Positions 1 through 20,104 of a stretch of DNA of 64,000 bases are shown in pieces. Made by a program: the position numbers and the translations under genes. The notes beneath the pieces were generated by a model, which did no database searches, was not told where the DNA came from, and worked only from the letters and a program-made list of their open reading frames with translations. The stretch is from Porphyridium purpureum (taxonomy: Eukaryota > Rhodophyta > Bangiophyceae > Porphyridiales > Porphyridiaceae): NCBI GenBank assembly GCA_008690995.1, contig VRMN01000005.1, forward strand, positions 682,001 through 746,000, read 5' to 3'. How positions within the stretch are numbered: position 1 is the stretch's first letter; every line of letters begins with the position of its first letter.

Positions 1-660
1 TCTCATGCGTTGCACTTGTGCCGAGCGCTGATTTTGATGCTTCACTCTCAGCGATTTTCTTTTCTCTTTCACCGCGACACAGAGTGTGGACGCTATACAC
101 CACTGTGCACTAATACTACTGCCAAATACCCACAACTGAACAGAGGAATCAAATGCGCGGGAAAAAAGTATTCTCCCAGTAAATACACGCCGATAACTGC
201 AAGTATGATTCTAAGCTAGATCACACGGAAAGACGGAAGCGCCTTACTTCTCCACTCGATTCCTGGGTCAAATGTCGAGAAATAATGACACTTTCCAGAT
301 TGTGACTGCTTCTAAGCGTGGCTTCCTTTCGAACCCAATGCCCAGCCGCCGCGCCCAAATACTGGCTCTCTCGCCGGAACCTGCTCTACCACCGCGGCCC
401 TGTATTCGAAGCCCCACTCTGCCGCTTCGTATGCTATGCACTTACACCATCAGTGCTGGTCAGCTCAAGAGGCTCAGTCTGATCCTTTGCATCCATCGTA
501 AATTTGACCCTTTCAAAATCTCAAAGTCTAGCCAAGCATTCCCATATTGCACGTATTGTGAAACTACGCCATTTTAGTAATAATATTTGAATAGTGCGGT
601 GATGTAATGCACACCAACAACTTGAAGAAAATAGCGTCAACTTAGACGCACGCGAAGAAA
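1..660. other. Spacer without recognisable gene
   Basis: Only short open frames with no recognisable domain or codon character are seen here. It is the left flank of the first transposon, and the true transposon edge may lie inside it; I could not find a terminal inverted repeat by eye. Confidence 0.5.
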
Positions 661-775
661 GGGTCGGACGAGTGGGTCGGACGAGTGGGCCGGACGATAG
701 GACGGGACGAGTGGGCCGGACGATAGGACGGGACGAGTGGGCCGGACGAGAGGACGAGACGATTGGACGGCGCGA
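661..775. repeat. Tandem repeats at the 5-prime end of element 1
   Basis: Two 13-bp units (GGGTCGGACGAGT) are followed by two 26-bp units that start GGGCCGGACGATAGG and by a degenerate third. The array ends about 55 bp before the transposase ATG. Subterminal repeat arrays are usual in CACTA-like DNA transposons, where they bind transposase, so this is the likely left subterminal region of element 1. An open frame running through it is a by-product of the repeat. Confidence 0.7.
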
Positions 776-830
776 GGGGGCCGGGGAAGGGGGCCGTGCG
801 AGGGGAGTTAAAGGGATTCGGCGCATAGGC

Positions 831-3800
831 ATGGATAGTCGTGAGAGCCTCGCCCACAAGCCGTGGCATCGTCGTCGAGAGAAACGATTACAATGCGATG
901 GTGTCAACTGCGATTTTTCACCGCCTGAAGGACAAGGTTTATCTTACACTGCGCGGGTCCAAGTCATGCGAGAACACAAACTGTGCTGCAGACTGCGTGT
1001 ACGCACAGGGCGCATTCCATACGCGAATCTTCGACGGTCGACTGCTGTGTACGGTGGCCCATGCGATGACGATACACGCAGTGGAATTGACTTTGACGTC
1101 AGTGCCGGCATAGACAATCATGACGACAGCGCACGGGACAGCGACAATGACGGCGGTGATGACTTCGTGGACCCAGAAGAGCAGATTGAATCGGATGATG
1201 ATCTTGCTCTAGAGAATGACGCGGCAGACAATGATGAAGCCAACGAAGCAGAACGTATGGGACACGATGCAGCACAGATGAGCGATGCGTATCCTAGTCG
1301 AGAGATTGACGTCGAAACGCTTGTGACCCGTTATGCAAAGCGTTTTGAGAGATTACTCGACCAGAAGACTTTACGCCAGCGCCTACAACACCGCGACGAC
1401 AGCATCTCGAAGTACGTGCGCACGTTGACTGGCATAGGCTCATCGGAGAACATTGACATCGACGATGCAGTCGAAGTTCTAAGGTTTAAAAGTGAACAGG
1501 AGATGTTTATGCACAAGCACGCCATTTCCACTCGCGAAGCACTTGAACTAAAGTCGATGGAGATGCAGCTGTTACGCATCACTACTCGCACGACTCTTCG
1601 GTATATTACTCGAATAATCAGGCGTGCCTTTACGGATTTGAGAAGGAATCTATCGACCTGCGATGCATCTTTACTTGAGAAGGCCTTCTCTGTGATGCAA
1701 ACAAGTATCAACGAATCAGCTGCGGGTCTGGTTAAGCGAGCTTCGACCCTTCTTTTCACCCACAGATCTAAGCAATGCATATCGGATATCATCGGAAACA
1801 CAGTCATCGATGCTCAGGAGGCAATTATTGAATACGGCGCAGGGAAGACACTGCATGGGAAGATTTTACCTCGCAATGTGGTCCAAAAGATTCGCTTCCG
1901 TGAGCCAATGGAGCTCGCAGTAAATTCGGTTGTTTCCATCATCAGGGAATACGGTTTGGACGCCTTGAAAATCAATCTCTTCGAAGACCAACAGCGCAAG
2001 TCCCTCGTTTTCCCGCAAGATGGTAACCTGTGTGTCAACGCAGCTCGTCGCATCGCATTCGAAGTCAGGCAGAAATATGGTCCGGACCCACCTGAGGCAG
2101 TTCTATTTCCGCTGCAGATATACGCTGACGAAGCGCACATGACACAGAACGGGCGTCATACAATGACGCCGCTCAAGATCCGTATCGTGCATCGTCGCAT
2201 GTTCTGCTCAGATGCTCACCGTGAGCCACATGTCGTCGCGTATTTACCTGCGGTGGACACTGAATGCGTTGCTAGAGCATTCGGAGCGAGCCAAAACCTC
2301 CACATCAATGCAAAGTTGGCTCGACGTGAGCTCGAATCGTCGATGTATCACGCGATCATGAGCAAAACATTTTACGACACGCTAGCTGCTAACAAACATG
2401 GCATCCCAGTAACATGGCAGCAGCGTCGACTGCTTTTCTTTCCCATCGTGTACAAATTATCGATGGACATGCCAATGATATCAAAGTGCTCTTTCACCAA
2501 GGCATCGTTTGTATCCGGTGGGCGCGCGCAGAAAATGCCCTGTCATCAATGTATGGTACAAGCTCCACAATCATCGATACACACGCTCAGCACACCAGCG
2601 GCGCCACATCAAACAGAAAATGATGAGTTCTGGGTTACACGACGTCCCCTGCAGTATCGATCAGAGAAGAAAATTGAACACCTTGTGACCCAACACTTAT
2701 CCGAATGGGGAGCTTCGATGAGAAAGGCACATTCTCTGCAGTTCATCGGAGAACATGCAGCGATCGGATGGAATCGCTTCGACGAGAATGATGACAAAGA
2801 TTTCAACGAACTTGCAGCTGGATACGAGGAACACATAAGGCTTCTTAATCGTGGAAGGTTCCAACTGACCAGTATCGATGGGCTTCACGGTTTCTTGGCG
2901 TTCTGGTTCCGCGGCATAACCGTTGCCGGACTCAAGGCATTACTGAGCAAGCCAAATGTCACCCACCGAGTAGCAAACGTTGTCTTTGAACTCACGGAAG
3001 CGCAAGAGCGCGCGAAGCAATATTCAAAGCATGGGGAGGAAGAAGACGCAATCGGTGCCATGGCATCGCTTGATAGAAGCGAAGATACATGTGCCAGTGC
3101 AGGCGAGAGCAACAGCGAACATGGTTCCGAATCCAACAGCGAATGCGCGTCTGACATCGATGGACCATCACAATCTGGACAAGCGTCACCCGCAAAGAAA
3201 CGAAAGACAGCAAGCGCTCCGCCCAGCGGGACGAGATTTTCACACTCGAGTGCACATGGCCGTGCGCTCCCATTGAAGACGGCAACTCCAAAGCACAAAG
3301 GCAGCGCAACAGATCAGCTTCGCGGAATCATTGACTCAGCCGCTGGAAAAGCATGGAGCCGAATAGCCACGAATATCATGAATGAAGCCAGCTTCCGACG
3401 ACACGCTGTGTACACGCGAATTCGCTCCTCTAACTTCTTACTCGACTTGACAAAACTCGCTGAACAATCATACTCGCTTGGTCACCTTCTCCAAATGGTC
3501 GTACTCATACAACAGGAAGACATCCTCGAGGATCATGCACGCATTGCCTTCACCAATCTTGCAATTCGATGTATTCAGTTGTACGGCGTACTATATCTGC
3601 GAGTGATTCCCCGTGACCTGCTGATTCGCATCCCAAGTCTCACAAGTGAAGTGCAATCGCGGCTTCGAATATTCACACAGCGCATTAATCTACCTTGGAA
3701 TGCTCCAAAGATCCATGCGCTTTCTCACTTTGGCGATAATTTGGCGGACTTCGGGCCGATGAAATTTTGGGATACGACGGACGGTGAAAAATCCTTCCAA

Positions 3801-3917
3801 GTTGACAAGGTCTGGTTCAAGTCGCTGGTTGGTTCGGACACTTGGAAGCCGCATGAATCTATGCTACGCCGCGCTGCTAAGCACGAACTTGCATCGTTTT
3901 CGAATCGCTGGCTCTGA
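831..3917 (+). CDS. Plavaka/CACTA-like transposase, main part (copy 1)
   Basis: Predicted transposase of a large DNA transposon. The ATG at 831 is chosen because the second copy at 16,347 starts at the same point (MDxxxxLxxxxWHRRRxKR). A C2HC zinc finger follows (C22-x4-C27-x21-H49-x3-C53, conserved in both copies), then an acidic linker. The conserved core has the blocks YADEAHMTQNGRHT (Asp433), LSMDMPMISKCSFTKASF (Asp546) followed by CHQC, GLHGFLAFWFRGITVAGLK, and HALSHFGDNL...FWDTTDGEKSF (Glu986). This order is what I recall for Plavaka and other TNP2-like transposases; D433/D546/E986 as the catalytic triad is inference. The frame stops at TGA 3915-3917 but stays open in the same frame beyond it, and copy 2 reads through the equivalent point (YWFDKLTR against RWL-stop-QLTR). 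So this copy is one nonsense codon from full length, or the stop is read through. Confidence 0.72.
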   Translation: MDSRESLAHKPWHRRREKRLQCDGVNCDFSPPEGQGLSYTARVQVMREHKLCCRLRVRTGRIPYANLRRSTAVYGGPCDDDTRSGIDFDVSAGIDNHDDSARDSDNDGGDDFVDPEEQIESDDDLALENDAADNDEANEAERMGHDAAQMSDAYPSREIDVETLVTRYAKRFERLLDQKTLRQRLQHRDDSISKYVRTLTGIGSSENIDIDDAVEVLRFKSEQEMFMHKHAISTREALELKSMEMQLLRITTRTTLRYITRIIRRAFTDLRRNLSTCDASLLEKAFSVMQTSINESAAGLVKRASTLLFTHRSKQCISDIIGNTVIDAQEAIIEYGAGKTLHGKILPRNVVQKIRFREPMELAVNSVVSIIREYGLDALKINLFEDQQRKSLVFPQDGNLCVNAARRIAFEVRQKYGPDPPEAVLFPLQIYADEAHMTQNGRHTMTPLKIRIVHRRMFCSDAHREPHVVAYLPAVDTECVARAFGASQNLHINAKLARRELESSMYHAIMSKTFYDTLAANKHGIPVTWQQRRLLFFPIVYKLSMDMPMISKCSFTKASFVSGGRAQKMPCHQCMVQAPQSSIHTLSTPAAPHQTENDEFWVTRRPLQYRSEKKIEHLVTQHLSEWGASMRKAHSLQFIGEHAAIGWNRFDENDDKDFNELAAGYEEHIRLLNRGRFQLTSIDGLHGFLAFWFRGITVAGLKALLSKPNVTHRVANVVFELTEAQERAKQYSKHGEEEDAIGAMASLDRSEDTCASAGESNSEHGSESNSECASDIDGPSQSGQASPAKKRKTASAPPSGTRFSHSSAHGRALPLKTATPKHKGSATDQLRGIIDSAAGKAWSRIATNIMNEASFRRHAVYTRIRSSNFLLDLTKLAEQSYSLGHLLQMVVLIQQEDILEDHARIAFTNLAIRCIQLYGVLYLRVIPRDLLIRIPSLTSEVQSRLRIFTQRINLPWNAPKIHALSHFGDNLADFGPMKFWDTTDGEKSFQVDKVWFKSLVGSDTWKPHESMLRRAAKHELASFSNRWL

Positions 3918-3938
3918 CAACTAACGCGAGACGCGTAT

Positions 3939-4745
3939 TTGAATGAGGGCCAACAATCAGACGTGCGGACGTTCACCAACACGGCACCAAATGTGAACAC
4001 AGCAAATCAAAGACACCCATGGTACCGGCATCGAGGATCGTCAATACATTTCTCATCGTCTTTATTCGGTGTCTGGCGCGACGCATGCACCGTCTGGACA
4101 TATACCAGAGAGAACGGGTTTCGAAGTGCTTTGGAATGGCAACCACAAATATGGAACCCATACGCTTCGCGTACATCCAACAGCACAAACAGCAACGCTG
4201 AAAGGGTAGCTCTATGGGCGAGAATGGATAGCGCTTTGAAACGTTTCGCGATGAACAAGTTCCGCGCTGAAGCGACGCATGCATCAGTTGTACTCGAGGC
4301 TTTTCGACAAATGCAGCTCAAGCACCGAAGGCAGACTGTCGAATGCATCGTCGCGCATCCGGATCACTATAAGAATCCACGATGGGACTTCGTCGAGTAC
4401 TCAAAGCACTCGACCCACCCGGACCAGTACGCGTACGGGAAATGCATCTTAATCGCCCGGATCACGATAAATACGGATGAGCACAACGAGACCTTCGATG
4501 TCGCAGTGATTCAGGACTTCGAAGGGCATGATGGAGAATCCTCCAAGTCGCCGTGCGCCAGCAAGTGCATGCGTCTCGAGCCCGTGTTCCACCACCAGAG
4601 ATTGCAAAGCGACTCCGTGCAAGTGATAGACGCGACGATGATAACAGGGAGGGTGACAGCATTCCAGGATACATCGCAGAAGCTTAGCCGATGGTATTAC
4701 TTCGTGAACCCGAACACATTTGAGGGCGTACAGGCATACAATTGA
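3939..4745 (+). CDS. C-terminal part of the copy-1 transposase
   Basis: Open in the same frame as 831-3917 and starting 21 bases after its stop. It matches the C-terminal end of the copy-2 transposase, which has this region in one frame with the core (WYRHR-SS, LFG-W, ECIVAHP-HY), and the displaced copy-2 tail at 26.6 kb (GKCILI-RI, VIQD-E-HDGE, ITGRVTAF, SRWYYV). The region therefore belongs to one polypeptide of about 1,304 residues. It appears to be a small globular C-terminal domain; its function is unknown. An independent start at the ATG 3939 is possible but is not supported by copy 2. Confidence 0.65.
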   Translation: MNEGQQSDVRTFTNTAPNVNTANQRHPWYRHRGSSIHFSSSLFGVWRDACTVWTYTRENGFRSALEWQPQIWNPYASRTSNSTNSNAERVALWARMDSALKRFAMNKFRAEATHASVVLEAFRQMQLKHRRQTVECIVAHPDHYKNPRWDFVEYSKHSTHPDQYAYGKCILIARITINTDEHNETFDVAVIQDFEGHDGESSKSPCASKCMRLEPVFHHQRLQSDSVQVIDATMITGRVTAFQDTSQKLSRWYYFVNPNTFEGVQAYN

Positions 4746-4784
4746 AGTTGCGGTATACGAATCACTTCCCCTTTCACGCGAATC

Positions 4785-5050
4785 CCATGCTTTTTCCGGC
4801 TGTTTTTCTCCGAGTTTTTCAATTCGTACAAGAAACGTTTTTCCAAAATTCAAGAAGATGCGATTGAAATACCTCAGATCACTCTACTATTCTGAAAGGA
4901 CAGCGGCTGAACAGATTTTCCACGAGTTTTTCTGCCATTTATTATTAGAGTTTTCTCAAAAAAGACAGACAATGGAAAAAGCACTGTACTTTTCGTGCTG
5001 ACACTGCAAGGAGTTTTTCCAAGAGTTTTTCCGGGCGTTTTTTTGCCATT
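4785..5050. repeat. Degenerate TTTTTCsG-type array after element 1
   Basis: Irregular repeats of a T-tract followed by CC or CG (GAGTTTTTCC, GCGTTTTTTTGCC and similar) begin about 40 bp past the transposase stop. A much cleaner array of the same kind (GTTTTTCGGGAA units) lies at 27,036-27,270, just after the copy-2 transposase. The shared position suggests a 3-prime subterminal repeat of this transposon family. Confidence 0.6.
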
Positions 5051-5449
5051 TAGCACACGGACTGTCCGTGCGGAGCATATCCTCACAAAAGTTTTCGCAC
5101 TCTTGGATGTGAATACACACGCCCACGACCGCAAATATTTCTGCCTTGATCCGTGTCGTCTCTTGCGAGTAGAAACATATGTGTAGAGGAAAGCATGTCG
5201 ATGAATTTTGCCCCCTTCGCTCACTTTGAAGACCAACAATGCGATACCTTCCGTAGCTCGTCCCGCTCTGCCTCGGTATCTCCAGCCCACCCATGAGCGC
5301 GCGGCTCCACGGGTTTGCATTTGCACATGCAGGGCCTCGAAAGGCGTCCGGTAAATCGTTTACGCCGGGCGTAACGTAGCGATACAAAGTCACACCGTTG
5401 CCCAATACTACTTCGAGCTCCCAGCGAAGGAGAGGGAGGTGGTTTATGG

Positions 5450-6415
5450 ATGAAAACGCCAGTCCTTGTGGAGACAGCAAGCGAACCGATGAGAAAAACG
5501 AATAACGCGCGGGGTTCAAAGCGTAAGCGTACCGGCGTCGAACCAGGTGTGGAGCCAGTGGGTCCACGCGCGGTGCCATCCCATTTGGCTCGCGCAGCCC
5601 AGATGCAACGTGAACATGATGGTGCAAAGTCAATTGACATTGCGGATATCCGGCACTTGCACGACTTGGGTCGTGCGAGCGATGGTATGGCGGTCAGTGA
5701 CGACGACGGTGTTGTCCATCGACTGCTCCGCGTACTGATGTTCGCCACTGACGTGATAGAAGACCGTGCCCGGATCAAGGAGCTTGAGATGAGGGTAGCA
5801 GCATTGTCCCGGAAGGTCACAATATTGGAGACTCGGATACACGGGAGCGTCGCCGTTGACTCGCTGGATGTCCGCGATATTGAGACACCAAAGTCGGTAA
5901 TTGGTGACGTGAGCCTTGCACAGTTCACGAGAGCCGCCCCGATATCGGACGCAGTAGCCGGGAATATCCGCGACATTTACACTCGTAGATGCGGCATCGC
6001 AAAAACATGGCTGCGTTCCATAGCCCCGCATGACAGACCTTACCCATATGAACTGGTTCTTGCAAGATACGCCGGATGGCCATGGTGGCCGGCCGTGGTG
6101 GTTCTCAGTATTGACGGACTTGGCCCTGAAGTTCTTATGAAAGGGTGCGTGCGAGATACCTCTGAAGAAGGCCGCAAGAAAGCCGACGAAGATGTGATGA
6201 CATTGAGGAAGGGTTGCATCGTTGTCCGTTTCCTTGGGAAAAGCGCCGCATCTTTTGTGTGGGTCCTCATGGAGCACACACATATGAAGCACGATTTTAC
6301 CCTTGTGGATGGTACGCCGAAAGGGCGCACAAAGCCATCGAAAGAGTTGGCGTCGGCGTATGCCATGGCGAAACAGTATGCTGATATCAGACTCAACGGC
6401 GCAAAGACCCGTTGA
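5450..6415 (+). CDS. PWWP-domain protein carried by element A
   Basis: 321-residue protein starting at the ATG 5450. A basic patch (GSKRKR, residues 22-27) could be a nuclear signal. Residues about 105-131 (RIKELEMRVAALSRKVTILE) look like a short coiled coil. A PWWP domain lies at about 197-280: YELVLARYAGWPWWPAVVV (GWPWWP at 209-214), an acidic insert, then GCIVVRFLGKSAASFVWV. PWWP domains bind methylated histone H3 tails plus DNA, so this is a predicted nuclear chromatin reader. No transposase or enzyme domain is seen. The gene is the first of a block in which NATATN palindromes are very dense, and five or six of these lie inside it, so it probably belongs to element A rather than the host. 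The upstream 5.05-5.45 kb would hold its promoter; no clear TATA box was found. The PWWP call is firm; the role in a transposon is inference. Confidence 0.75.
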   Translation: MKTPVLVETASEPMRKTNNARGSKRKRTGVEPGVEPVGPRAVPSHLARAAQMQREHDGAKSIDIADIRHLHDLGRASDGMAVSDDDGVVHRLLRVLMFATDVIEDRARIKELEMRVAALSRKVTILETRIHGSVAVDSLDVRDIETPKSVIGDVSLAQFTRAAPISDAVAGNIRDIYTRRCGIAKTWLRSIAPHDRPYPYELVLARYAGWPWWPAVVVLSIDGLGPEVLMKGCVRDTSEEGRKKADEDVMTLRKGCIVVRFLGKSAASFVWVLMEHTHMKHDFTLVDGTPKGRTKPSKELASAYAMAKQYADIRLNGAKTR

Positions 6416-6473
6416 TGACATTTTGTCTGCGCAAGGCGAGCAATAAACTCCATTTATAAGCAGTACACTATGT

Positions 6474-6914
6474 TCAAGGTTTCGTGTCCGAACCAGAATA
6501 TTCCATGTAGTCCAGGAACGAAGGTGCAGATGCCGCGGATGGTGCGCCCATAGCTTGTTCGATATCGTCGCTTTCATTCATTGAGTTCACCGTTGGAGCA
6601 TGTGAAGGTCGGGGCAAACGACTAACAGACGCGCGCGGGCAATTGATGAGGCGCAATTGAGTTGCACGATATCGGATGGCTCGACACAAGCGTAGGTCTC
6701 CGTCGTTGATTGCGATATCGCTGTCACGGACACAAATTCGGCCCTCTTCGTCCAGCTGTATGGAATGGATATCCGAGCGAAACCAGCGTCGGCATGTCTG
6801 GATACACTTCAATATGCCCATGAAGCCCTTCTCAGGCAGCTTTCCATCAGCCCAAGACGTATATGTTTCCCAGTGTATTGGAATATTCCATTCGTCTTCA
6901 TTATCTCCAGGCAT
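6474..6914 (-). CDS. Acidic protein, probable C-terminal part of the neighbouring minus-strand gene
   Basis: 146-residue frame starting MPGDNEDEWNIPIHW. It lies downstream of the 6939-8108 minus-strand frame, in the same phase, and the eight codons between them read DRSEESDD in frame, which fits the acidic sequence on either side. The two may therefore be one protein of about 540 residues interrupted by a single TAA. No domain is recognised. Several element-A palindromes fall inside (GATATC at 6563, 6669, 6715 and 6769). Confidence 0.45.
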   Translation of the reverse strand: MPGDNEDEWNIPIHWETYTSWADGKLPEKGFMGILKCIQTCRRWFRSDIHSIQLDEEGRICVRDSDIAINDGDLRLCRAIRYRATQLRLINCPRASVSRLPRPSHAPTVNSMNESDDIEQAMGAPSAASAPSFLDYMEYSGSDTKP

Positions 6915-6938
6915 GTCATCACTTTCCTCCGATCGGTC

Positions 6939-8108
6939 TTACCAGTCCGATGCGGTGTCATCACGTGCTTGACACACTTTCGATATCGATGGTGCCCGCG
7001 GTTGAGCCGAAGAGACAAAGAGGGAGTGCATCTGCAGCTTACACAGCCCTTCCAAGTTGAGTCCGATATCAGCAAACGGAAAGTCTTTTCCATCCTTCGC
7101 ACCCGAGCGCAGGCCCAACAGTGACAGCATGAGCGAGTTTGACCACAGTGTCGACGACCAAGCCTTGTCAGATTCGGAACCGTCCCTATCCGGACGTAGC
7201 CATATGGAGTCCGCTTCATCGATTTTCAGCTCACGACAAAGGACACTGTAGTATGGATCTCTTTCAAGCGCCAATATTGATCGGCCATACTTTCCCAGGA
7301 CCTGCGTGATTGCGCAGTAGATCGCAGTCATCCAAGTGATACCGATATCGAGAGCTTCCTTCTCCTCGTTTGGCGTGATGCGGTCATCCAGTGGAGCTAA
7401 ATTTGTACCATATGGTGATACTGGCGTTCCGAACTTTCTGTACAGTCTAGAACTTAATAATGGCCGACAGGCAAACGACTTGACCGGTTCCTCAACCGTC
7501 CCGTCTCGCGTTATGCAGTCGACGACGCGACGCGCGGTTCCCAAGTGGGCCTTGAAAGCTGCCGCGAGCGACAAACGAATATTCCTACGGAGCCTATTTT
7601 TGGCACCTTCCAGCGATTCCTGCATCAAAGTAGTAAGTGCTTCGTCTTCCATCATGGACGGAGGATCCACAAACCCAATGTCAGTGTACCACATGGTAAA
7701 CATTGTCAAGCCCGGCGATGCCGCTGGCGTGTACGGCTCGCGATGATCATATGTAGCGGCAAGGCGCTCGAACTTGCGCCAGAAGTCCATACAGCCCGTA
7801 CCCGCGTCGTCGACCTTTACAACAGCAGGTAACAGCCCACGATTCACAATATTGCGCACAAAGATATCGGTCGCGGAGCCTCTTCTGGCTCGCTTCTTCG
7901 CTCTGTCTTTCCCGCGGCGCCGCCGCCCAAAATTGGAGCCATCGACTGTGGAAGACAAGGCTGGTGTGACCACAGCCTCCGCCGGCGCGTCCTCGTCCCC
8001 CCGCAGCCGCCGGGCCACTGCGCTGCGCGACGATATCTCAGCGCTGCGACTCATTCTAATATTGACACCCGCGCCACGGACACGCGCACCCCTTCCCAAG
8101 TCTGCCAT
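6939..8108 (-). CDS. Element-A protein of unknown function (minus strand)
   Basis: 389 residues from the first ATG at 8108 (the frame is open further upstream but with no ATG). The N-terminal 90 residues are Arg/Ala/Ser rich with basic clusters (GRRRRGKDRAKKRARRG) typical of nuclear localisation or DNA contact. The remainder is predicted to be globular and helical, with blocks such as FWRKFERLAATYDHREPY and ALDIGITWMTAIYCAITQVL. I do not recognise a family. It diverges from the plus-strand gene at 8392, so the pair probably shares a promoter. It carries many NATATN palindromes at coding positions. A DNA-binding role is only suggested by the basic N-terminus. Confidence 0.55.
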   Translation of the reverse strand: MADLGRGARVRGAGVNIRMSRSAEISSRSAVARRLRGDEDAPAEAVVTPALSSTVDGSNFGRRRRGKDRAKKRARRGSATDIFVRNIVNRGLLPAVVKVDDAGTGCMDFWRKFERLAATYDHREPYTPAASPGLTMFTMWYTDIGFVDPPSMMEDEALTTLMQESLEGAKNRLRRNIRLSLAAAFKAHLGTARRVVDCITRDGTVEEPVKSFACRPLLSSRLYRKFGTPVSPYGTNLAPLDDRITPNEEKEALDIGITWMTAIYCAITQVLGKYGRSILALERDPYYSVLCRELKIDEADSIWLRPDRDGSESDKAWSSTLWSNSLMLSLLGLRSGAKDGKDFPFADIGLNLEGLCKLQMHSLFVSSAQPRAPSISKVCQARDDTASDW

Positions 8109-8391
8109 ATGGCGCGCCACCTTCGAGACGCACAAGTTCGCCTATCTCTCTTCTCCCCCTTGGCGAGAGCGCGCGCAAAAAGACAAGTCGAGATTGGAAA
8201 AATAGAGCTATTTTCATATGAAAACGTGACCTTTTGGACGTGACCCGTGTGGGGTGTTGGGGACGGGATCGCATGCCGGCAAGTTGCGAAGGGGTCGCTT
8301 GCTCGCGGAGAGAGAGGGGAGCGGCGATATCGCGACAGAGGCAGGTTCTGCGGAGACGGGGATTTGCCGGCTGACGACAGCACTTGTCCAT
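8109..8391. promoter_or_regulatory. Divergent promoter region of element A
   Basis: 283 bp between the ATG of the minus-strand gene and the first ATG of the plus-strand gene. It holds a CATATG (8216) and a GATATC (8327) of the element-A motif set; the ATGs on both sides are themselves part of CATATG words (8107, 8390). No convincing TATA box was seen. Confidence 0.35.
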
Positions 8392-9990
8392 ATGGAACGC
8401 TCGCTCGATTCATACCGGGCGGAGGCATGGGAGCTGGAAGACTTGTACGTGTCCGGGGATATCACCCAGGATGACTTGGACGCCACTCCATATGGACAAA
8501 GGATGTGTTTCGGGCCGCTGCTGCCGCCCGATCTTCTGCAGGTCTCTCGGGTGCGGCGCACGGAAGCCTTGCGCCGTGACGAGACGGCCGCGTCGGACCC
8601 GATGTCTCACGCCGATATTGGAGCCCGCGAGGCGCACCTGGGCATCGCTGTGAGCCATGCCTTTTTGATGTACTTCAGCAATATTGTTGGAGCTCTCAAG
8701 TGTCCACGTGGCGGCGTCACGGTGGCCCACTGGATCGCAGAAACCCCATATGGGCAGCATCACTATTCAGCCCATATGGGAGAGCGGGAGGTGGCACTGT
8801 ATCGCATGTTTCTGGCGGCGCAGCGCACGGAACGCCTCTTTGCGTGGTCATATGACGAATTCACGGGTGCGGTTGCCGACCAAAGTGCTCCGCGCCAGCT
8901 TTCATATGGACATAAGCGCAGGCGCACTGACGCAGGTGCACTCGGATATCCGAGCCGTGCACGCATTGAAGAGAGTCTAGACTTGGAGGCATGGCTGCTG
9001 AAGCAGAGATGCGAGTGGCCTCGCCGCCTGACAACCGTTGGCCCATATGAGCTCAGCCCAAAGCCGACGCGAAGTGACGGCTGGAACAGCGCATATGCTC
9101 ATTTTTACCATTTGCGCTCGCTTATGCCTACTGCGTACGGTGCGCCATCATATGATGCTGCGTTGGTGGTTCGCGGCCACGATGATGCGGTGGAGCGCAT
9201 CTCGAGGCTTACTCGCAACGCTTATCGGCTTCCTCAATTGCCGCGCAATATTGCATGCCCGTGCAACACAACAGGATACCCGGCCGTCATCTTCGTCCAC
9301 GAAGGCCCAAGGCTCCATGTGGAGACGATGCGGACACGTCCGCGCAGGGCAAGAGACGGTGACGAATTGTTCCCGAAGGGATGCTTGGCGCGCTTAGAAC
9401 GCATCCGCGCCGTGCGCGTGATGATGGACTTTGCGACAACGCTCCTCGATATCAGCACGTATGCTACCATATGGTTTGGCAGAGATGCTGCTCTTGCGCA
9501 TATGCGAAACTTGGTCCAAGAGCTCCGGAGCCGTGTCGTATCCGCTGACTACTCGGGGTCGGTCTTCCCATATGGGCCCACCGAGATGGATGAACAGCCG
9601 CAAAGGGTGTTTCGCTGGCCGCCACACCATACAGAGTATCATGGGCGCCGGCTGCGCGAAGCCTTCAGGATGGAAAACGTCCCGACCCAGCAGATTTCTG
9701 CAGATGGGCAGACTTATACCGTCCCACGCTACTCCGAGAGGCACGCCGTCGACATATGTGTAGCACGGCTGCGGAGCGCTCAGCTGTATGCTTGGCCTTC
9801 GATTGCGAGGACGCAATTGTATGCGTTCCGGGACGCGATAAATCCAGATGGAATGCACGTCCCGGAGTTACTCGCACCACGCTTCGATGTCGGCATGTGC
9901 AACATCCTGGAATGGGGCATTGAGCTATGGGACCACACGGTAGAGGCGCACAATCGAATATTCGCACATGTGACGCATGACTACCTGTAG
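8392..9990 (+). CDS. Element-A large protein, N-terminal half, unknown function
   Basis: 532 residues from the ATG at 8392; the open frame extends 138 bases upstream to 8254 but without an ATG. No known domain is recognised. Repeated short strings such as TPYGQ, LSYGH, GPYEL and FPYGP are caused by CATATG words read in one frame, and HMGE/HMER/HMRN strings by the same word in another, so the DNA motif shapes the protein. The frame ends at TAG 9988-9990, and the next 549-residue ORF is in the same phase with open sequence between them. The two may be one protein of about 1,110 residues interrupted once, or read through. Confidence 0.55.
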   Translation: MERSLDSYRAEAWELEDLYVSGDITQDDLDATPYGQRMCFGPLLPPDLLQVSRVRRTEALRRDETAASDPMSHADIGAREAHLGIAVSHAFLMYFSNIVGALKCPRGGVTVAHWIAETPYGQHHYSAHMGEREVALYRMFLAAQRTERLFAWSYDEFTGAVADQSAPRQLSYGHKRRRTDAGALGYPSRARIEESLDLEAWLLKQRCEWPRRLTTVGPYELSPKPTRSDGWNSAYAHFYHLRSLMPTAYGAPSYDAALVVRGHDDAVERISRLTRNAYRLPQLPRNIACPCNTTGYPAVIFVHEGPRLHVETMRTRPRRARDGDELFPKGCLARLERIRAVRVMMDFATTLLDISTYATIWFGRDAALAHMRNLVQELRSRVVSADYSGSVFPYGPTEMDEQPQRVFRWPPHHTEYHGRRLREAFRMENVPTQQISADGQTYTVPRYSERHAVDICVARLRSAQLYAWPSIARTQLYAFRDAINPDGMHVPELLAPRFDVGMCNILEWGIELWDHTVEAHNRIFAHVTHDYL

Positions 9991-10032
9991 GACGACCTGC
10001 CCGAACTGCATGCCACACCGAGGGACACGGAC

Positions 10033-11682
10033 TTGGCCATTGCCAAGGTGTTTGGCAGCTTCCATATGGAGCACGGAGGTAGCAGGATCAACTTTGGCCT
10101 TCCTGAAGACCTCAATATTGATGCAGCCTCGCACGCAGCATCCATCGAGCTCGACACGGCAGCAATCCAGTATTGGAAGGCGCAAGAGACTGCCTTTGCC
10201 TGGGATCGGGGGAGCAGCAGCGTGTGGGTGCAATGGTTATCTGGCAACGTGACCCGAAGACATACGTACCGCGGACACCAGTGCACATCTAATGTGCGAT
10301 CAATAGAGTATGGGGGGTCCGCGCCATATAGTGTCTGGGTCGCCATGCTCAGGCGATTGTGGACGGATGGCTGGCAGCTGCAGAGGGGCCTTGAACGTGC
10401 GGCGGAGATGCTACCACGCCCATCCGAGCCGCGCACGCCACATGGCACCCGTGTTGAGGAGCCTTTTGCCCCGCAAACGTACCGCACGTCCAGCCTCGCA
10501 GGCGGTACTTATGGGCATATGCGATTGCCAGCGGCCAGCCAAAGTTGGAGCGATGTGGACATCGTGCGAAGCCCGATATCGGCATCTGCGCGTGCACTTC
10601 CGGCGTCCGCACACGTGGATATCCAAGACTGCTTGATCTGTCAATTTCCGGTGACAGACCAGTTCATCTACGAGTGCACGACCCTGCACCCGACATGCAC
10701 TAGCTGCCTGCGCATGACATATGCCTTTAAGGTGGCGAACATGTACAGCATAGAACTGTCGAACTTTCACGTGGATGACAGGTTCATGCGCAATTATAGC
10801 ATGTGCGAATTGTGCAGGAAGGCCGTTGGCGTCTGCCGCATATGCGAACAAAATTACGCATTCGCGCCCTTCCTTTTTGCCGGCGCAATCTGTACGGAAG
10901 GCTTCTCGGACGCTTTCGTCGACCATATGGAGAGATGTCTTTTAACATGGCACGTCACAGATTTTGCTGCCTTGGCCGGCTGCATCGCCGAACCCAGAAG
11001 CTCGGGCAGGTGGCGGATGTCCACGAACCCACCGCTCGTCGAACTGGTAGCAAGCCAGGCGCGGCGCCACTTCGCGCACAGCATATGCCACAATATTGTT
11101 CGCATAATGCTCGTCGAAATGCGCCGGGCCCGGGCTCGCCAGATGAGTTTACCAGTGGAGGATATCCAGGAGTTGCTGGGGTATTTCCCTGGAAATCGAC
11201 GCAGGCCGTATGGAATATCCCGCAAGCTTGCGTTTGACGTTCTGGACACGCGCCGATTTCCTGTGTGGGACGATATCGTCAACGAGTACAACATGTACTG
11301 GGATATCCGACCGGTCGTACAGGCAATTGGCTCGAGCCCAGATTGGCCTCACCCGCCGAACTTGCCCTGGTGCCAACATATGAACAGTACGTGGCGACCT
11401 GGGTATATCCGGCATTATCCGGGTCAGCGCATAATGGAGGATATCCTTTCATATGAGCAACAGCGGGCTCGCTGCTGGTGCAATTACTTCGTGTCGGAAA
11501 CCAAGCTCCGCATGCGGCAGGCACTAAGCGATCATTTGGTCTCGCTGCAGGAAGGCGGCACCGGGTTAATACCGCCGCGACTGCAAGAGCTTTGCGTGTG
11601 CGACGAGTGCAGGACAGGGCAAGGCGTGGCTGCTCATATGAGAAGATACCCAGGGCTGGCGGACGACATGAAGATCGCGTGA
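10033..11682 (+). CDS. RING-finger protein of element A (C-terminal half of the large protein)
   Basis: 549 residues from the ATG at 10033. Residues 200-261 fit a C3HC4 RING: C200-x2-C203, then C-x3-H-x2-C-x2-C (ECTTLHPTCTSC), then C258-x2-C261 (CELC). A second cysteine/histidine cluster follows directly (CRICEQNYAF from residue 268, then a C and an HMERC), which could be an atypical zinc finger as in TRAF-like or RBR-like proteins. RING domains usually recruit E2 enzymes for ubiquitin transfer, so an E3 ligase role is likely from the family but not shown. The tail has one more cysteine pair (CVCDEC). The preceding ORF is in the same frame. About 17 NATATN palindromes lie inside. Confidence 0.6.
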   Translation: MAIAKVFGSFHMEHGGSRINFGLPEDLNIDAASHAASIELDTAAIQYWKAQETAFAWDRGSSSVWVQWLSGNVTRRHTYRGHQCTSNVRSIEYGGSAPYSVWVAMLRRLWTDGWQLQRGLERAAEMLPRPSEPRTPHGTRVEEPFAPQTYRTSSLAGGTYGHMRLPAASQSWSDVDIVRSPISASARALPASAHVDIQDCLICQFPVTDQFIYECTTLHPTCTSCLRMTYAFKVANMYSIELSNFHVDDRFMRNYSMCELCRKAVGVCRICEQNYAFAPFLFAGAICTEGFSDAFVDHMERCLLTWHVTDFAALAGCIAEPRSSGRWRMSTNPPLVELVASQARRHFAHSICHNIVRIMLVEMRRARARQMSLPVEDIQELLGYFPGNRRRPYGISRKLAFDVLDTRRFPVWDDIVNEYNMYWDIRPVVQAIGSSPDWPHPPNLPWCQHMNSTWRPGYIRHYPGQRIMEDILSYEQQRARCWCNYFVSETKLRMRQALSDHLVSLQEGGTGLIPPRLQELCVCDECRTGQGVAAHMRRYPGLADDMKIA

Positions 11683-11752
11683 TAGCTTGCCAAGAAGGCC
11701 ATCGCATATGCGAACCACGGCCTCGTGACGGGGCCGTTCAATACTTACCAGG

Positions 11753-12010
11753 TGTTATCCGCCGACCCCGCGGATACCTAGTCTTGCGGGATCCTTGCTG
11801 TGGCCTTGCTGTGGCCTTGCTGGAACCTTGCTGGTCCACTGTCATTTTTCTCACAGTGCTACCCGGCGAGCTGGAGAACACGGGGCGGCAGTCTATAAAA
11901 AGGCGTGGAGACCCGCGAGCAGGCTCGGGGACAAAAAAGAAGAAGAGAGAGAGGAGCGAAGGGGAGAGAAGAAGGAGAGGGAAAGTAAAAGGAAAAGGAG
12001 GTTCATAACA
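11753..12010 (+). mobile_element. Solo LTR with intact ends and target-site duplication
   Basis: 258 bp with short inverted ends TGTTAT and ATAACA, flanked on both sides by CCAGG, a perfect 5-bp target-site duplication. A TATA box (TATAAAAAGG, about 11,896) is followed by a purine-rich stretch, as in the LTRs of the copia element at 19.8 kb, but the sequence is a different family. No internal region is present, so it arose by recombination between two LTRs. It sits in the right edge of element A. Confidence 0.85.
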
Positions 12011-12285
12011 CCAGGTGCCGTCAATATTGACGTGGTCACTGAGTCAATGCCGTGACCACGCTCACAGCACAGAATGATCCATGTAGACGGGGTACAGGAA
12101 GTTGAAATATATTAAATATTAATAAATTCAAAAAAATAATTCTTTGGCGTAGAAAACAAAACTTGTTGTCCCTGGAGGTACAGCCAGACCAAATGGTTAC
12201 GAGGAACCCTAAAATCCTTAACTGTTAAGGATTTTAGTATTAACGAATTACATGTCCGCATTAGTGGAAAGTATGAACGGGAGTG
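12011..12285. other. AT-rich junction between elements A and B
   Basis: No gene. The sequence becomes AT-rich (12,110-12,140) and ends in the perfect palindrome described separately. The last element-A palindrome is at 12,022 and the first element-B CGGAT word at about 12,375, so the boundary of the two blocks lies here. Confidence 0.55.
12209..12237. repeat. Perfect 29-bp palindrome at the A/B junction
   Basis: Two 14-bp arms (CTAAAATCCTTAAC and its complement) with a single T between them. It lies 50 bp past the stop of the minus-strand gene ending at 12,286, so it could act as a 3-prime hairpin, or be a joint of two abutting element ends. Confidence 0.75.
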
Positions 12286-13608
12286 TCAACGGGCGAGTAA
12301 CCTTAAATACACGGTTGTGGATGTCCACTCGTCAACGCATTCGTGGTGGGCTAGCATATACGCTTCGAAGCTTCCGGATGAAGGTACAAGAACACAATCC
12401 TGGATTATCTTTTTCAATGCAATGTTCGACCTGCTGTAGCGCGTGCCCGGCGCGAGCTCTGCACGGATGACCTGGAGTATGCGGTGCTTGAATCCGATGA
12501 AACTCTTATTGTGCTCCTCGGCCAATTCGAAATACTTGCTGGCAAGCTCCGTTCGGAGCTTGCGATTCATCTGACCGATCCTCATCGAGGTCTCTTCCCC
12601 CGTATGCCGCATTCTTGACCATGTCGTTGTTCTGCGCGAAATGAGTCCATCCGGTTCGAAGAGAATTCGAAGCTTGATCAGTTCATCCGATATCGTGCGC
12701 ACTTGTCCGTAGTCAGCGTATTCGGACATAGCGTCAATATCAGGATCTCTCATACGTTGCTGAAAACCATTGTTGTTCAGATCCTTGGGCTCGACGAGGA
12801 TCTGCCACGAATGCAAGAAATGTGGCGTCGGATTCAACCACATCAATACTTCTGGCACATTTGCAAATATCGCAGCCGTACAAGAATCCGTATGCATCGT
12901 CCTAGTGATTGAATCAATGTATCCGGGTGAGAGCCATACGCGCGGTGGCATTTCCCATGATCTTGCCGACGTTCGACGGCGACGCGAACCCACCTTGTAT
13001 TCGTATTTGTCATCTTCCACCGGATTCTCAGCACGACGAAATAGATCCCATGTAAATTCGACAATCGCTGGAACTGCACGAACGAAGTATTCGATGATAT
13101 CATTCATTGCCGGATCATGCTTTTCGTAGTCCTTGAATACATATCGGCTCTGAAAGTGGTCCACGATCTGCCGCGTGATACGAATTTGAGCTGCAAAGTA
13201 ATGCCATGCGATGTGATAGCGTGCGACCCACAGTCGTGTATGAAGTTCGCTGAATCGATTATACTGGTCCATTCGAAAGCTCCTTCCGTGTTTATCCGAA
13301 TCAGCGTGATGGCGCGTTACATCGAATACAGGCCATTGCCTCCTCCATTCAATCACACTTTCTACTCGCACCTGGAACGACGGCCAGTAGGCACAGATCT
13401 CATGGAATGCAGTAATCGTATGCACGCTCGATAGGTATGAACCACTCGGATAACCATTCACTGTATCCATTTCTGGCGAGAAGCTCGTGGAGGTATCCGA
13501 ATATTTTCTGAGCACCTGGTCATACGCGAAAACATCAATTTCCTTTGTTTCAGCGAGCAACATTCGCCGCGTCACTTGATTCCGACCGAATCCAACCCTG
13601 GCATCCAT
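12286..13608 (-). CDS. Element-B large protein, C-terminal part, unknown function
   Basis: 440 residues from an in-frame ATG at 13,608; the frame is open up to 13,893, overlapping the end of the upstream minus-strand ORF. Aromatic-rich and probably globular (LWVARYHIAWHYFAAQIRI, EYFVRAVPAIVEFTWDLF); no family recognised. The overlap begins at a run of seven C on the plus strand (13,666-13,672, GGGGGGG in the coding sense). A one-base slip there would join it to the ORF above into one product of about 1,200 residues. This could be a sequencing error, a mutation or programmed frameshifting. CGGAT/ATCCG words are dense here (about 14). Confidence 0.5.
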   Translation of the reverse strand: MDARVGFGRNQVTRRMLLAETKEIDVFAYDQVLRKYSDTSTSFSPEMDTVNGYPSGSYLSSVHTITAFHEICAYWPSFQVRVESVIEWRRQWPVFDVTRHHADSDKHGRSFRMDQYNRFSELHTRLWVARYHIAWHYFAAQIRITRQIVDHFQSRYVFKDYEKHDPAMNDIIEYFVRAVPAIVEFTWDLFRRAENPVEDDKYEYKVGSRRRRTSARSWEMPPRVWLSPGYIDSITRTMHTDSCTAAIFANVPEVLMWLNPTPHFLHSWQILVEPKDLNNNGFQQRMRDPDIDAMSEYADYGQVRTISDELIKLRILFEPDGLISRRTTTWSRMRHTGEETSMRIGQMNRKLRTELASKYFELAEEHNKSFIGFKHRILQVIRAELAPGTRYSRSNIALKKIIQDCVLVPSSGSFEAYMLAHHECVDEWTSTTVYLRLLAR

Positions 13609-13663
13609 CGACCGTTTGTAATACGCATGTTCATATGCTGCTTCGATGCATCGTTGTTCTTGA

Positions 13664-15895
13664 TCACCCCCCCATCGTTTTCTTCCGGCACAACAAGAAT
13701 CGATGTGCGTATCGGATGCCACGCAGCACATCCTGAAGAGGATGAACCGGAAGGCGCTCCACAGTGCCAATCGGATTCGTATACACATCTTCGTAAGAGA
13801 AATCATCGCATGAACATCCGTATCGAGAATCACATTTGTTTCCCATCGAAGCCGTATGCGTGTATCGACATGGTCTGTATGCCATACAGGCAAGCGCGCC
13901 TTGGACTGCGCAAGTCACCGCATACCATTCGTTGGCTAGAGATTCAAAGTGACCTAAGGCATCAAATCCACGTCGCATCTCCGCTGGTTGCATTAATTCC
14001 GTATTATCCATCGGATGTGCAAATCGGAGCCTTGCGTACGCATTATTCATATTCAAGGCATTGATACGGATTAGATCCCAGAGCATTGCTGTATCTCTCA
14101 GCATCCATGAAAACATGCCGCTATCCGCTATCGTGAAGCCAGTTGGGTCTGATGGATGATTCATCACCCGAATAATATAATCCTCGGATGCAAACTTTCG
14201 TCCTCGGTAACCCGTCGTCTTCTTCGTCGCCAGGTGGGGTACCTTCTGAATGAGGTACGCACCGATATCCGCGTGCAGGAATTGACAGTCATCCGAAGTA
14301 AACGCGAATTCATCCGTAAAGTATTCGTCTACTGTGTAGTTGCTGTACAGCAGCGCATTCGGAAGCTCTGCACCGTTATGGTCTTCGCGTGGAGAGTCTT
14401 CGCACGGAGTGACTTCGAAAAATTCGAGCCCGGTCAGACCGTCGGTGAAATTCTGATGCGGATCTTTGTTCTCGAACGACCATGCCGTAAGCATTCGCAT
14501 GTAGAAGTCGACGTTCAGAATCACATCCAAAAGATGCAGACCCACCTTGTCATTTTCCTTGGCCTCTATGTGAATGGCCTTATACGTATTCTCACTTGCA
14601 TCCTTGTACATCGCACTGAATCGATCTATGATATCGTAATGCGAAAAGCCTCGTCTGATGGACTTAGGTTGCTGCATCGGATGACTGCTTCGACCGAGAG
14701 TGCACGTATCTGTCCGTGCACGCTTCGGATCCTGACGTGAAGCAAATATCCCAGGCACATTTCGGATATCACTTCGAATTTCTCCTCGGATATAGCTAGC
14801 TCCCGGATCGTCTTCGCGGCTGTATGAAGCCGTGTCATACTTGACATTCCCATATCCGCGGGGAATCTGTCCCGGGCGCGGGAGCGAACTGCTTCCTCGC
14901 CTTTCGAATGGCGCACGGTACGTTCCGGATCCAGAACCACTTGGCATATCAATTCTACCATACCCAGGCGGGCCTCGTAGCGTTTTCTGGGTATTCGGAT
15001 TCAGCGCAGCGGCCCCAAGTCGCAGCGAACTCGCCGAATTACTACGGATGAGTCCACCACGAATGCGACGGCTGCGCTCATCAGCATCCGATGCTTCACT
15101 ACTTTCGATCGAATCCGACATTCGTCGTTTCCCTTTGTCAACAGTCGAGACCCTTTTCGATCGCCGAGTATTCGGATTCACGTCAGACTCAGCATGCTGT
15201 CCTGAAGGTGCGTTCGAATCACGCAAATTCGTTCCAGGCGTTCTCTTGACACGCATATCCGTATCCATTTTCGCAGCGTCCAACGAATCTCCGGATGCAT
15301 ATTTCTCTGCACCAGCACCTGCTGCAGGTAGTCCGGTATCCGCTGGAAGGTGTCCGCGCAATGCTCTTGCCGACACACTCTGCGAATCCGACGACACAGA
15401 AACCGCGCGAATCGGAGATCGACGGCCAACACTGGACATGGATGTGGTCGACTTCTTCGCAGTATCCGAAGCCTTTCCCACGATATCGGACGGTTTCGCA
15501 CCGACGTCCTTCACTGGATCCTCCTTCGGATTTGCACCGACGTCCTTCACTAGATCCTCCTTCGGATTCGTCTCCGCGTCCGCGCATTTCGCACCAATCG
15601 GATCACCTACCGCAGCCGTCTCAACTGAAGCCGTAGCTGGCGCGGACTCCGACGGCACTTTTTCCACATCCCTCTCAACTTCATCATTCGGATGACCTCG
15701 GACGGCTGCCTTCAGTTTCGACGATGCTCCTCGCACTGCCGAACCCTGACCCGCACCGGACGCACGCCCAGGCTCCACCTTTTTCGTCGCCGCCGGATAC
15801 GTCGCTTTACCCCCCTTGCCCTGCGCACTTCCGGATACCACTTTCCTTCCTTTCGACGGATTCGGATCCGCCACTTTCTTCCCGGTGTTCTCCAT
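13664..15895 (-). CDS. Element-B large protein, N-terminal part, low-complexity then globular
   Basis: 743 residues from the first ATG at 15,895. The first half is Ser/Gly/Lys/Asp-rich and probably disordered; it contains a short internal duplication of a KED-VKDVGA-type unit (coded near 15,490-15,580) and basic Ser-rich stretches (RRSKRVSTVDKGKRRM). The second half, from about residue 415 (GFSHYDIIDRFSAMY), looks folded, with a Cys-rich end (CDSRYGCSCDD). No known domain is recognised. It diverges from the copy-2 transposase at 16,347. The C-terminal overlap with the next ORF suggests one gene split at a homopolymer. About 36 CGGAT/ATCCG words lie in this gene. Confidence 0.55.
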   Translation of the reverse strand: MENTGKKVADPNPSKGRKVVSGSAQGKGGKATYPAATKKVEPGRASGAGQGSAVRGASSKLKAAVRGHPNDEVERDVEKVPSESAPATASVETAAVGDPIGAKCADAETNPKEDLVKDVGANPKEDPVKDVGAKPSDIVGKASDTAKKSTTSMSSVGRRSPIRAVSVSSDSQSVSARALRGHLPADTGLPAAGAGAEKYASGDSLDAAKMDTDMRVKRTPGTNLRDSNAPSGQHAESDVNPNTRRSKRVSTVDKGKRRMSDSIESSEASDADERSRRIRGGLIRSNSASSLRLGAAALNPNTQKTLRGPPGYGRIDMPSGSGSGTYRAPFERRGSSSLPRPGQIPRGYGNVKYDTASYSREDDPGASYIRGEIRSDIRNVPGIFASRQDPKRARTDTCTLGRSSHPMQQPKSIRRGFSHYDIIDRFSAMYKDASENTYKAIHIEAKENDKVGLHLLDVILNVDFYMRMLTAWSFENKDPHQNFTDGLTGLEFFEVTPCEDSPREDHNGAELPNALLYSNYTVDEYFTDEFAFTSDDCQFLHADIGAYLIQKVPHLATKKTTGYRGRKFASEDYIIRVMNHPSDPTGFTIADSGMFSWMLRDTAMLWDLIRINALNMNNAYARLRFAHPMDNTELMQPAEMRRGFDALGHFESLANEWYAVTCAVQGALACMAYRPCRYTHTASMGNKCDSRYGCSCDDFSYEDVYTNPIGTVERLPVHPLQDVLRGIRYAHRFLLCRKKTMGG

Positions 15896-16346
15896 CTCGT
15901 CCCGCTCACCACCACTCACGCACCCGCACTGTCCACCTCCGCGCTACCGCGCTACCGCCCTCTCCGCCTTGTCCGCCTTGTCCGCCTTCCCAGCGCTTCC
16001 TACCTTCGCACAACCCACCTTCTCCGGATCACACCAACTTCCCCACACGACCTGCTCTTCGCCACACGGCCACTGCGGCCTGCGCGTTTGACTTGTATCG
16101 AATTTGATGGACCCAAATGAAAAAAATGGCAGAATTGAATGGCATGTGGGGTTTTGTCGGGAAAATTACGCATTCACAGAGAGAAAGCTTTACATTAACT
16201 ACCTCTTTGGCTTGCCGTGGTACAAACGCTACGCCTGCGTCCAGGAAAGACACGCGCGTCGGATTGACGGAAGGCTTTGGAGGCGGAACGGATACAGCGT
16301 GACGTGCGCGAAAACATACGGATAGGAAGACTTCCCCAAACCGCGA
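15896..16346. promoter_or_regulatory. Divergent promoter region of element B
   Basis: 450 bp between the ATGs of the large minus-strand gene and the copy-2 transposase. It contains short repeats (CGCGCTACCGCGCTACCG, and three CCGCCTTGT-like units at 15,960-15,990). Short open frames in it have no recognisable character. No clear TATA box is seen. Confidence 0.4.
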
Positions 16347-17051: not shown

Positions 17052-17089
17052 AGTCGATTGAAACCAAACTCTTACAAATTGCTATCCGT

Positions 17090-19845: not shown

Positions 19846-20104
19846 TGTCAATTAATTAAATAATTAATTAACTCTCGCTGTACCTACAGGGGTACAGCCC
19901 CCCTCAATATAACCACTTGGTTATAATGAGGGTCTCCATCTCTCTCCCTGCTAGTCCTAGTATAAAACTACGCCGAGTCGCGGCCGGCCTAGCCGTCAAA
20001 AAGTAAACAGACAGAGTCGACAGAAAAGAAGAAGAGTTCATAAAACTTTGTTGGGTCGCCGAGATAGCTTGGCAACTCGGCTCTCAGATCCGTAGGGATT
20101 GACA
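19846..20104 (+). repeat. 5-prime LTR of the nested copia element
   Basis: 259 bp, TGTCAATTAATT...GATTGACA. It has an inverted repeat with GTAC cores (GCTGTACC/GGTACAGC, 19,877-19,898) about 60 bp before a TATA box (TATAAAAC, about 19,961). Confidence 0.9.

Follow-up and report, generated by a model that had tools for sequence, protein, structure and literature searches.

Element A of the red alga Porphyridium purpureum is dense in ATAT-centred palindromes with free but matched arms

We analysed a stretch of 64,000 nucleotides from the red alga Porphyridium purpureum (GenBank assembly GCA_008690995.1, contig VRMN01000005.1, positions 682,001 to 746,000 of the forward strand), hereafter called the window. 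It contains one copy of element A, a 10,954-bp DNA transposon-like element of this species with terminal inverted repeats, and our subject is a short palindrome that recurs about a hundred times through this one transposon, strongly enough to bend the sequences of its proteins. The repeated unit is the 10-bp palindrome NNNATATNNN, rather than one of 6 bp: a strict ATAT core is flanked by arms whose letters are nearly free, yet left and right match.

A preliminary description of this DNA had counted by hand about 65 GATATC, CATATG and AATATT in 6.4 kb and about 8 ATAT with non-matching flanks, with less than one such word per kb in the host DNA at the right and no sites in a solo long terminal repeat (LTR) inserted in the element. 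The observation is confirmed and is stronger than first claimed. Between 5640 and 12030 there are 73 ATAT, of which exactly 65 are palindromic at the first flank (22 GATATC, 30 CATATG, 13 AATATT and 0 TATATA) and exactly 8 are not; for at least 65 of 73 palindromic first flanks, with a fraction of 0.25 expected, P = 1e-30. The three words together reach 10.2 per kb in this block against 0.70 per kb in 20001-64000 (31 in 44 kb), and the LTR holds no ATAT at all.

The palindromic flanks first noticed as an excess of six-letter words are thus real, but six letters are too short for the unit. Outward from ATAT, the flanks in the block pair in 65, 58 and 40 of the 73 cases at positions 1-3 (89, 79 and 55 percent), then in only 19, 17 and 18 at positions 4-6 (about 26 percent). 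The copy of element A on contig C8, which has both ends (799964-810917, 10,954 bp), gives the same profile, with 101, 88 and 65 of its 120 ATAT paired at positions 1-3 and 36, 29 and 27 at positions 4-6. No other palindromic tetranucleotide in the block shows flank pairing like that of ATAT. One-base neighbours of ATAT have a faint excess at most, near-equal on both strands, as decayed sites would.

The arms of these sites are nearly free, with 28 different ones among the 46 perfect 10-bp sites of the C8 copy; hence it is self-complementarity, and not a word, that is conserved. Matched pairs at position 1 have A, C or G on the left in 27, 38 and 36 of the 120 sites and never T; the pattern of the core is V-ATAT-B with up to three paired arm positions. 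Independent arms of the same compositions would give 38.3 pairs at position 1, compared with the 101 observed (P = 3e-32 for at least 101 of 120). Position 2 leans towards C and position 3 has a slight lean. A mixture of fixed words in place of free arms was considered and rejected, since positions 1 and 2 combine independently and their pair counts fit the product of the single positions.

The preliminary description held that nucleic acid rather than protein is being shaped, and named a codon-preserving shuffle as a way to overturn this. Such shuffles were run, 1000 for each of three open reading frames (ORFs) and, separately, 300 over the four ORFs of the C8 copy; codon-usage resampling took as its reference 7 long putative ORFs right of 21 kb (12.4 kb in total), picked by length. 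Over the four ORFs, 117 ATAT and 99, 78 and 46 palindromes of 6, 8 and 10 bp are observed. The synonymous shuffles average 58.6 ATAT and 25.9, 10.3 and 4.6 palindromes, with maxima of 74, 40, 20 and 14 in 300, and resampling averages 49.1 ATAT and 22.5, 8.6 and 4.4 palindromes. Both procedures therefore yield about half as many ATAT as observed and about a tenth as many 10-bp palindromes, and the claim stands. Taken singly, the small ORF for a PWWP protein is weak (8 ATAT versus 4.8 expected).

Codon positions tell the same story. First-flank pairing is found in 68 of 81 cases with a third codon position involved and in 31 of 36 cases where both bases lie at codon positions 1 and 2. Dipeptides DI, HM and NI occur 32, 15 and 17 times per 3195 aa in element A versus 13, 3 and 5 times per 3527 aa in two related elements, and the proteins of the C8 copy contain PYG 5 times and SYG once. 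Pairing at non-synonymous positions together with the DI, HM and NI excess indicates that the proteins bend to the DNA. Over positions 1-3 pairing is 153 of 198 with a third codon position versus 97 of 153 without (Fisher P 0.006); pairing in the outer arms may thus be held back by protein constraint, though positions are mixed in this comparison. In the transposase-like ORF, residues within sites have an identity of 0.32 versus 0.30 elsewhere (41 and 525 residues), and 9 of its 80 invariant residues lie inside sites versus 5.4 expected. The idea that the sites are insertion footprints was rejected, as several transposase sites coincide with conserved motifs, EAHM among them, whose alignment is gap-free.

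Within the C8 copy, 117 of the 120 sites lie in the four ORFs (43, 8, 21 and 45 in gene order), leaving 3 in 1,369 bp of non-coding DNA (P = 1e-4). Two of these are in the terminal non-coding DNA (684 + 248 bp), both within an AT-rich run, and one is in the internal spacers (437 bp in total). Given that the non-coding DNA is mostly terminal, exclusion from the ends is firmer than exclusion from the spacers. The spacing of sites averages 83 bp with a coefficient of variation of 0.72, and neither a helical nor a codon period was found in it. Sites had been reported across five ORFs and the spacers of a block at 5640..12030; they do run through the ORFs, but the spacers are nearly empty, the genes are four (two of them each split in two in the window copy, with the transposase part outside the window), and the element extends further, from 5065 to about 12321.

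A non-exhaustive search of the genome for further blocks, with two patterns of clustered sites, returned no second block of this kind. CATATG and GATATC occur within 34 bp of each other at 49 places (2 in the backward-read control), 12 of them in element A copies; of the 144 ATAT in 18 of the 37 other places, which were examined, 61 are palindromic; construction of the pattern accounts for 36 of those, and the remainder is at baseline. Three SATATS in a row occur at 21 places (control 0), of which 9 belong to element A and 12 do not, and no second SATATS cluster was seen beyond element A except one tandem repeat on C8. We also scanned for paired flanks around any core, with lengths of 2-6 bases in the window and, in a wider scan that took in 11 other stretches as well, of 0 and 2-8 bases. 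The excess belongs to ATAT in element A; beyond that element one score exceeds 5, that of a GTTGCTGT/TGTT array (z 5.9) in locus L055 (C8:813401-823400), perhaps a tandem repeat. In the window outside element A the next best score is for AT at 19501 (z 4.7, cores 2-6), and the window part of the neighbouring family B element has no palindrome excess. Among the matches listed in a pattern scan of viral and prokaryotic loci (L061-L296), 224 of 236 had at least 8 ATAT and were scored, and none is like element A; the best has z 4.5 with 27 ATAT in 14.4 kb. Another repeat family, recognisable by recurrences of the word CATATGACAACGATATC, is present on C6, C7, C21, C25, C29, C33, C40, C41 and C43, often near contig ends, with no excess like that of element A in the loci examined.

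Near-identical copies of element A (about 97 percent) lie on C8, C12, C1 and C11, the last of them partial, and the closest pairs are C1/C12 (99.9 percent) and C8/C11 (99.4 percent). A decayed relic on C20, about 20 percent diverged, keeps 3 of 4 ATAT cores over about 640 bp aligned, and the 9.9 kb around it has no palindrome excess. From these sequences, the palindromic sites appear to be old.

We tentatively propose that the palindromes are nucleic-acid-level sites of a two-fold-symmetric reader acting on DNA, which would have been selected while element A was active and would tag the element as self. Sites would have been gained by substitution in the transposing lineage and kept by selection on nucleic acid. 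A two-fold-symmetric nucleoprotein complex would then bind them along the body of the element; it would most likely be built by an element-encoded protein, either the 553-aa or the 1186-aa product. Its binding would tag the element as self, and the tag could keep the genes expressed or shield them from host silencing, although what the reader is and what the tag would bring are guesses.

A symmetric reader is supported by the abrupt end of pairing at 10 bp around a strict ATAT core, by counts far above those of the shuffles and the resampling, by arms that match while varying freely, by strand-neutral mismatches, by the bending of the proteins, by the sites on invariant transposase residues, by the lack of a second block within the searches made and by the age of the sites. 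The preliminary description had suggested a dimeric reader of a symmetric word; of this, the two-fold symmetric object is probably right, but a simple dimer on a fixed word is insufficient, since two independent half-site binders would not match the arms. That consideration also weighs against our own proposal, as independently read half-sites of a dimer would leave the arms unmatched. Further points weigh on the same side. A role at the transcript level would account equally well for the near absence of sites from spacers. Columns that vary between copies are 38 of 796 in sites and 263 of 5836 outside, and no constraint is visible in these landed copies, as expected from selection confined to the transposing lineage. 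Finally, the two candidate readers lack sequence matches in Pfam, PADLOC and PDB, and nothing in NCBIfam passes the cut-off, one stray hit having an E of 0.027.

Another account, possible but doubtful, is that the strand folds, each site forming a mini stem-loop (a 3-bp stem with an AUAU or ATAT loop) in mRNA or single-stranded DNA to which a loop-specific protein would bind. Stem-loop ligands typically show a constant loop on arms that pair but vary freely, and the sites of element A share with stem-loop RNA ligands both the fixed core or loop and the free paired stem. The strict core with covarying free arms and the location of 117 of the 120 sites in ORFs agree with this, and as RNA 34 of the 46 perfect 10-mers have a minimum free energy below 0, 16 of them below -1 kcal/mol. 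As DNA, however, 22 of the 46 have a value below 0, and -1 kcal/mol is passed by none of them; stems this short are marginal. Moreover, the stems end at 3 bp, and self-complementarity of the loop would have to be accidental (16 of 256 tetramers). Sense-strand mismatches over positions 1-3 are 24 G-U versus 22 A-C (5/5, 7/11 and 12/6 at positions 1, 2 and 3), strand-neutral in a small sample with no preference for G-U, and a stem in the sense mRNA is not supported; a need for stems on both strands would mask a G-U bias. Smaug recognition elements and integron attC sites have a fixed loop or ends and free self-complementary arms, but they differ in having longer stems, one or few sites and a loop that is not two-fold symmetric.

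It is rather unlikely, though conceivable, that self-complementarity itself is the signal, with some 100 self-pairing tags forming a distributed identity code whose reader checks symmetry and not sequence. The only perfect partners of a 10-mer would be itself and sites with like arms, whether these lie on one molecule or in a different copy, which would allow homotypic recognition or assembly.

A mutational origin seems still less likely. Here templated repair or fold-back at ATAT would copy one arm onto the other without any function, and both the outward decay of pairing (84, 73, 54 and 30 percent of 120) and the indifference of first-flank pairing to codon position are what such a process might leave. 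It does not explain the ATAT excess itself or the 3-bp limit, nor the absence of sites from the other elements and genes examined and their near absence from non-coding parts. Copy differences are also as frequent in sites as outside; hence no site-making process is visible now.

RNA interference is an improbable cause, although the genome has four Piwi-domain loci and the overlap of ping-pong small RNAs is 10 nt, the length of the unit. Small RNAs of the element would carry the self-complementary 10-mer and pair with themselves or with both strands, thereby blunting or feeding silencing. This leaves the strict ATAT core unexplained, and with sites 83 bp apart on average, only about 1 in 6 stretches of 22 nt would include a whole one.

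Equally improbable is a symmetric N6-methyladenine mark at ApT maintained on both strands, which the preliminary description had suggested and which is now disfavoured. The two-fold symmetric, ApT-rich core would suit it, and the lack of T at the first flank of palindromic sites recalls the V of the VATB context described in PMC12695648. According to that same paper, however, the methylase AMT1 prefers SATS, TAT is among the poorest contexts, and TAT/WATW is the least methylated in AMT1 species except Trichomonas. AMT1 methylation resembles the present sites in being symmetric, centred on adenine and thymine and located in genes; but as every site is ATAT, each ApT has a T or A neighbour and so is not in a SATS-type context, and matched arms are not described for AMT1 in what is available of PMC12695648. 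Free matched arms are left unexplained by such a mark. A search of the genome for MT-A70 gave 0 matches, which carries no weight as the positive control was silent too (0 of 14 genomes), and there is one sub-threshold N6_N4 methylase match. Raised mutability of the core, considered as the footprint of a modified base, was rejected, with 10 of 308 core columns variable versus 97 of 2495 A/T columns outside.

Chance, base composition or codon usage is a negligible explanation: ATAT alone is only about twofold above the shuffle and the small PWWP ORF barely above it, yet the shuffles over four ORFs, the pairing profile and the density contrast with 20001-64000 all contradict it.

The nearest precedent for a motif bound up with one transposon family is VANC, an element-encoded protein that reads a motif in VANDAL21; according to PMC5735166 and PMC10398659, the Arabidopsis VANDAL motif, YAGTATTAY, is fixed, non-palindromic, of one orientation, tandem in non-coding regions, and counters DNA methylation. 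Like it, the present motif is short, dense in one transposon family and rare in related ones, within the stretches and patterns searched. It differs in its free arms and symmetric sites, 117 of 120 in ORFs and not in tandem. In addition, the C5 DNA methylase PF00145 has 0 matches in this genome (positive control found in 10 of 14 genomes). With Piwi loci present and no such methylase match, RNA interference is the likelier silencing system of the host, and a VANC-like, methylation-removing role for the palindromes is unlikely. A second comparison is with HIP1 of cyanobacteria, a highly iterated palindrome with the sequence GCGATCGC that PMC4390886 links to orphan methyltransferases. HIP1 is likewise a hyperabundant short palindrome, and a few genomes have palindromic variants on the same GATC core (PMC4390886); it differs in consisting of one or two words spread genome-wide, whereas here a single element family carries the many arms described above. 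None of the dense-motif kinds described in the literature searched, in which subscription journals are thinly covered, was found to fit a fixed 4-bp core with free matched arms.

The reader, whatever its nature, must sense symmetry or pairing. The palindromes would point either to a self-tag of mobile DNA of a new sort or to a nucleic-acid reader of a new class. The alga has been sequenced by Nanopore (PMC6811547) and is transformable (PMC6110788), so that the question is directly testable.

The features of the window that bear on element A are collected in Table 1.

Table 1. Element A and associated features in the window
Feature	Position	Strand	Basis
Family B transposon, right part, inserted in element A	1..5064	+	junctions, relatedness, core scan
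Element A, window copy	5065..12321 (right end approximate)	+	homology to four other genomic copies (one partial), about 97 percent
ORF of 321 aa with PWWP domain	5450..6415	+	Pfam PF00855, E 1.5e-6, above cut-off
ATAT-centred sites (73; 65 palindromic at first flank; arms paired to 3 bp)	5646..12027	.	counts, positions, pairing profile
553-aa gene, C-terminal piece, split off in window copy	6474..6914	-	intact 553-aa ORF in L005
553-aa gene, N-terminal piece (398-aa ORF)	6939..8135	-	comparison with intact copies
1186-aa gene, first piece (578 aa, stop at end)	8254..9990	+	frame longer in four other copies
1186-aa gene, second piece (549 aa, putative RING-like Cys/His spacing)	10033..11682	+	other copies
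Solo LTR (258 bp, TGTTA...TAACA, 5-bp repeat CCAGG on both sides, 0 ATAT)	11753..12010	+	missing from other copies; ends and repeat

The C8 copy has perfect 13-bp inverted ends, CAGTCCATAACCG, with GA outside both. Its four genes are, in order, a transposase-like ORF (+; 1131 aa stop to stop), the PWWP protein (+), the 553-aa protein (-) and the 1186-aa protein (+). We call the first ORF transposase-like on the ground that several element families, two with like ends, have it in common as their large gene; relatives of it occur in both elements flanking the window copy and at about twenty further places in the genome. The transposase-like ORFs have no Pfam match over cut-off, no tnp2 match at E up to 5 was obtained for the A ORF (first 950 residues), for the ORF of a related element on C12 or for those of families B and C, and a profile of four such ORFs has no PDB match. 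Among the about 8000 candidates scored in each protein search, viral contigs included for the 1186-aa protein, no relatives of the transposase profile or of the 1186-aa protein were found, and the 553-aa protein matched only two hypothetical proteins of P. purpureum, FVE85_9349 and FVE85_4211. Neither the 553-aa nor the 1186-aa product has a counterpart in the related families among the loci examined. The Cys/His spacing in the 1186-aa product is presumably RING-like; Pfam gives no match. Rfam gave no match in 5000-12400 of the window.

CACTA/EnSpm transposons have terminal inverted repeats with ends CACT, a 2-3 bp target repeat, and a transposase with accessory genes. Element A resembles them in its inverted ends and its transposase-like and accessory genes, and the 2-bp repeats GA (A on C8) and TC (B) are a weak likeness, seen in one copy each. 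The ends differ, being CAGTCCATAACCG in A and CAGTCCG in B, and not CACT.

In the window, element A is flanked by the related families B (1-5064) and C (12286-19855), and the B element, 9.39 kb long, has cut away the left part of element A at 5065. This insertion has ends CAGTCCG(C/T)GTG, a 2-bp target repeat TC and a transposase-like ORF at 672-3917. The large ORFs of B and C share DE(A/S)HM, MDMPM, PC.QC and PK.H motifs with element A, and a further family on C12, C11 and C40 has the same motifs with small changes. Judging by these sequences, the large ORFs of A, B and C possibly form an undescribed transposase superfamily, with CAGTCC ends (A and B), 2-bp target repeats and no Pfam match. 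In locus L057 (C12), a 1515-aa transposase-like ORF at 1823-6367 lies near a second PWWP-like ORF, which matches the PWWP protein of element A by blastp (E 5e-5); PWWP accessory genes thus recur without the palindromes. Finally, subterminal repeats resembling TTAATACTCG and TTAATACGCG lie near both ends of the C8 element (L054 6464-6600 and L005 7300-7415) and are perhaps binding sites of its transposase.

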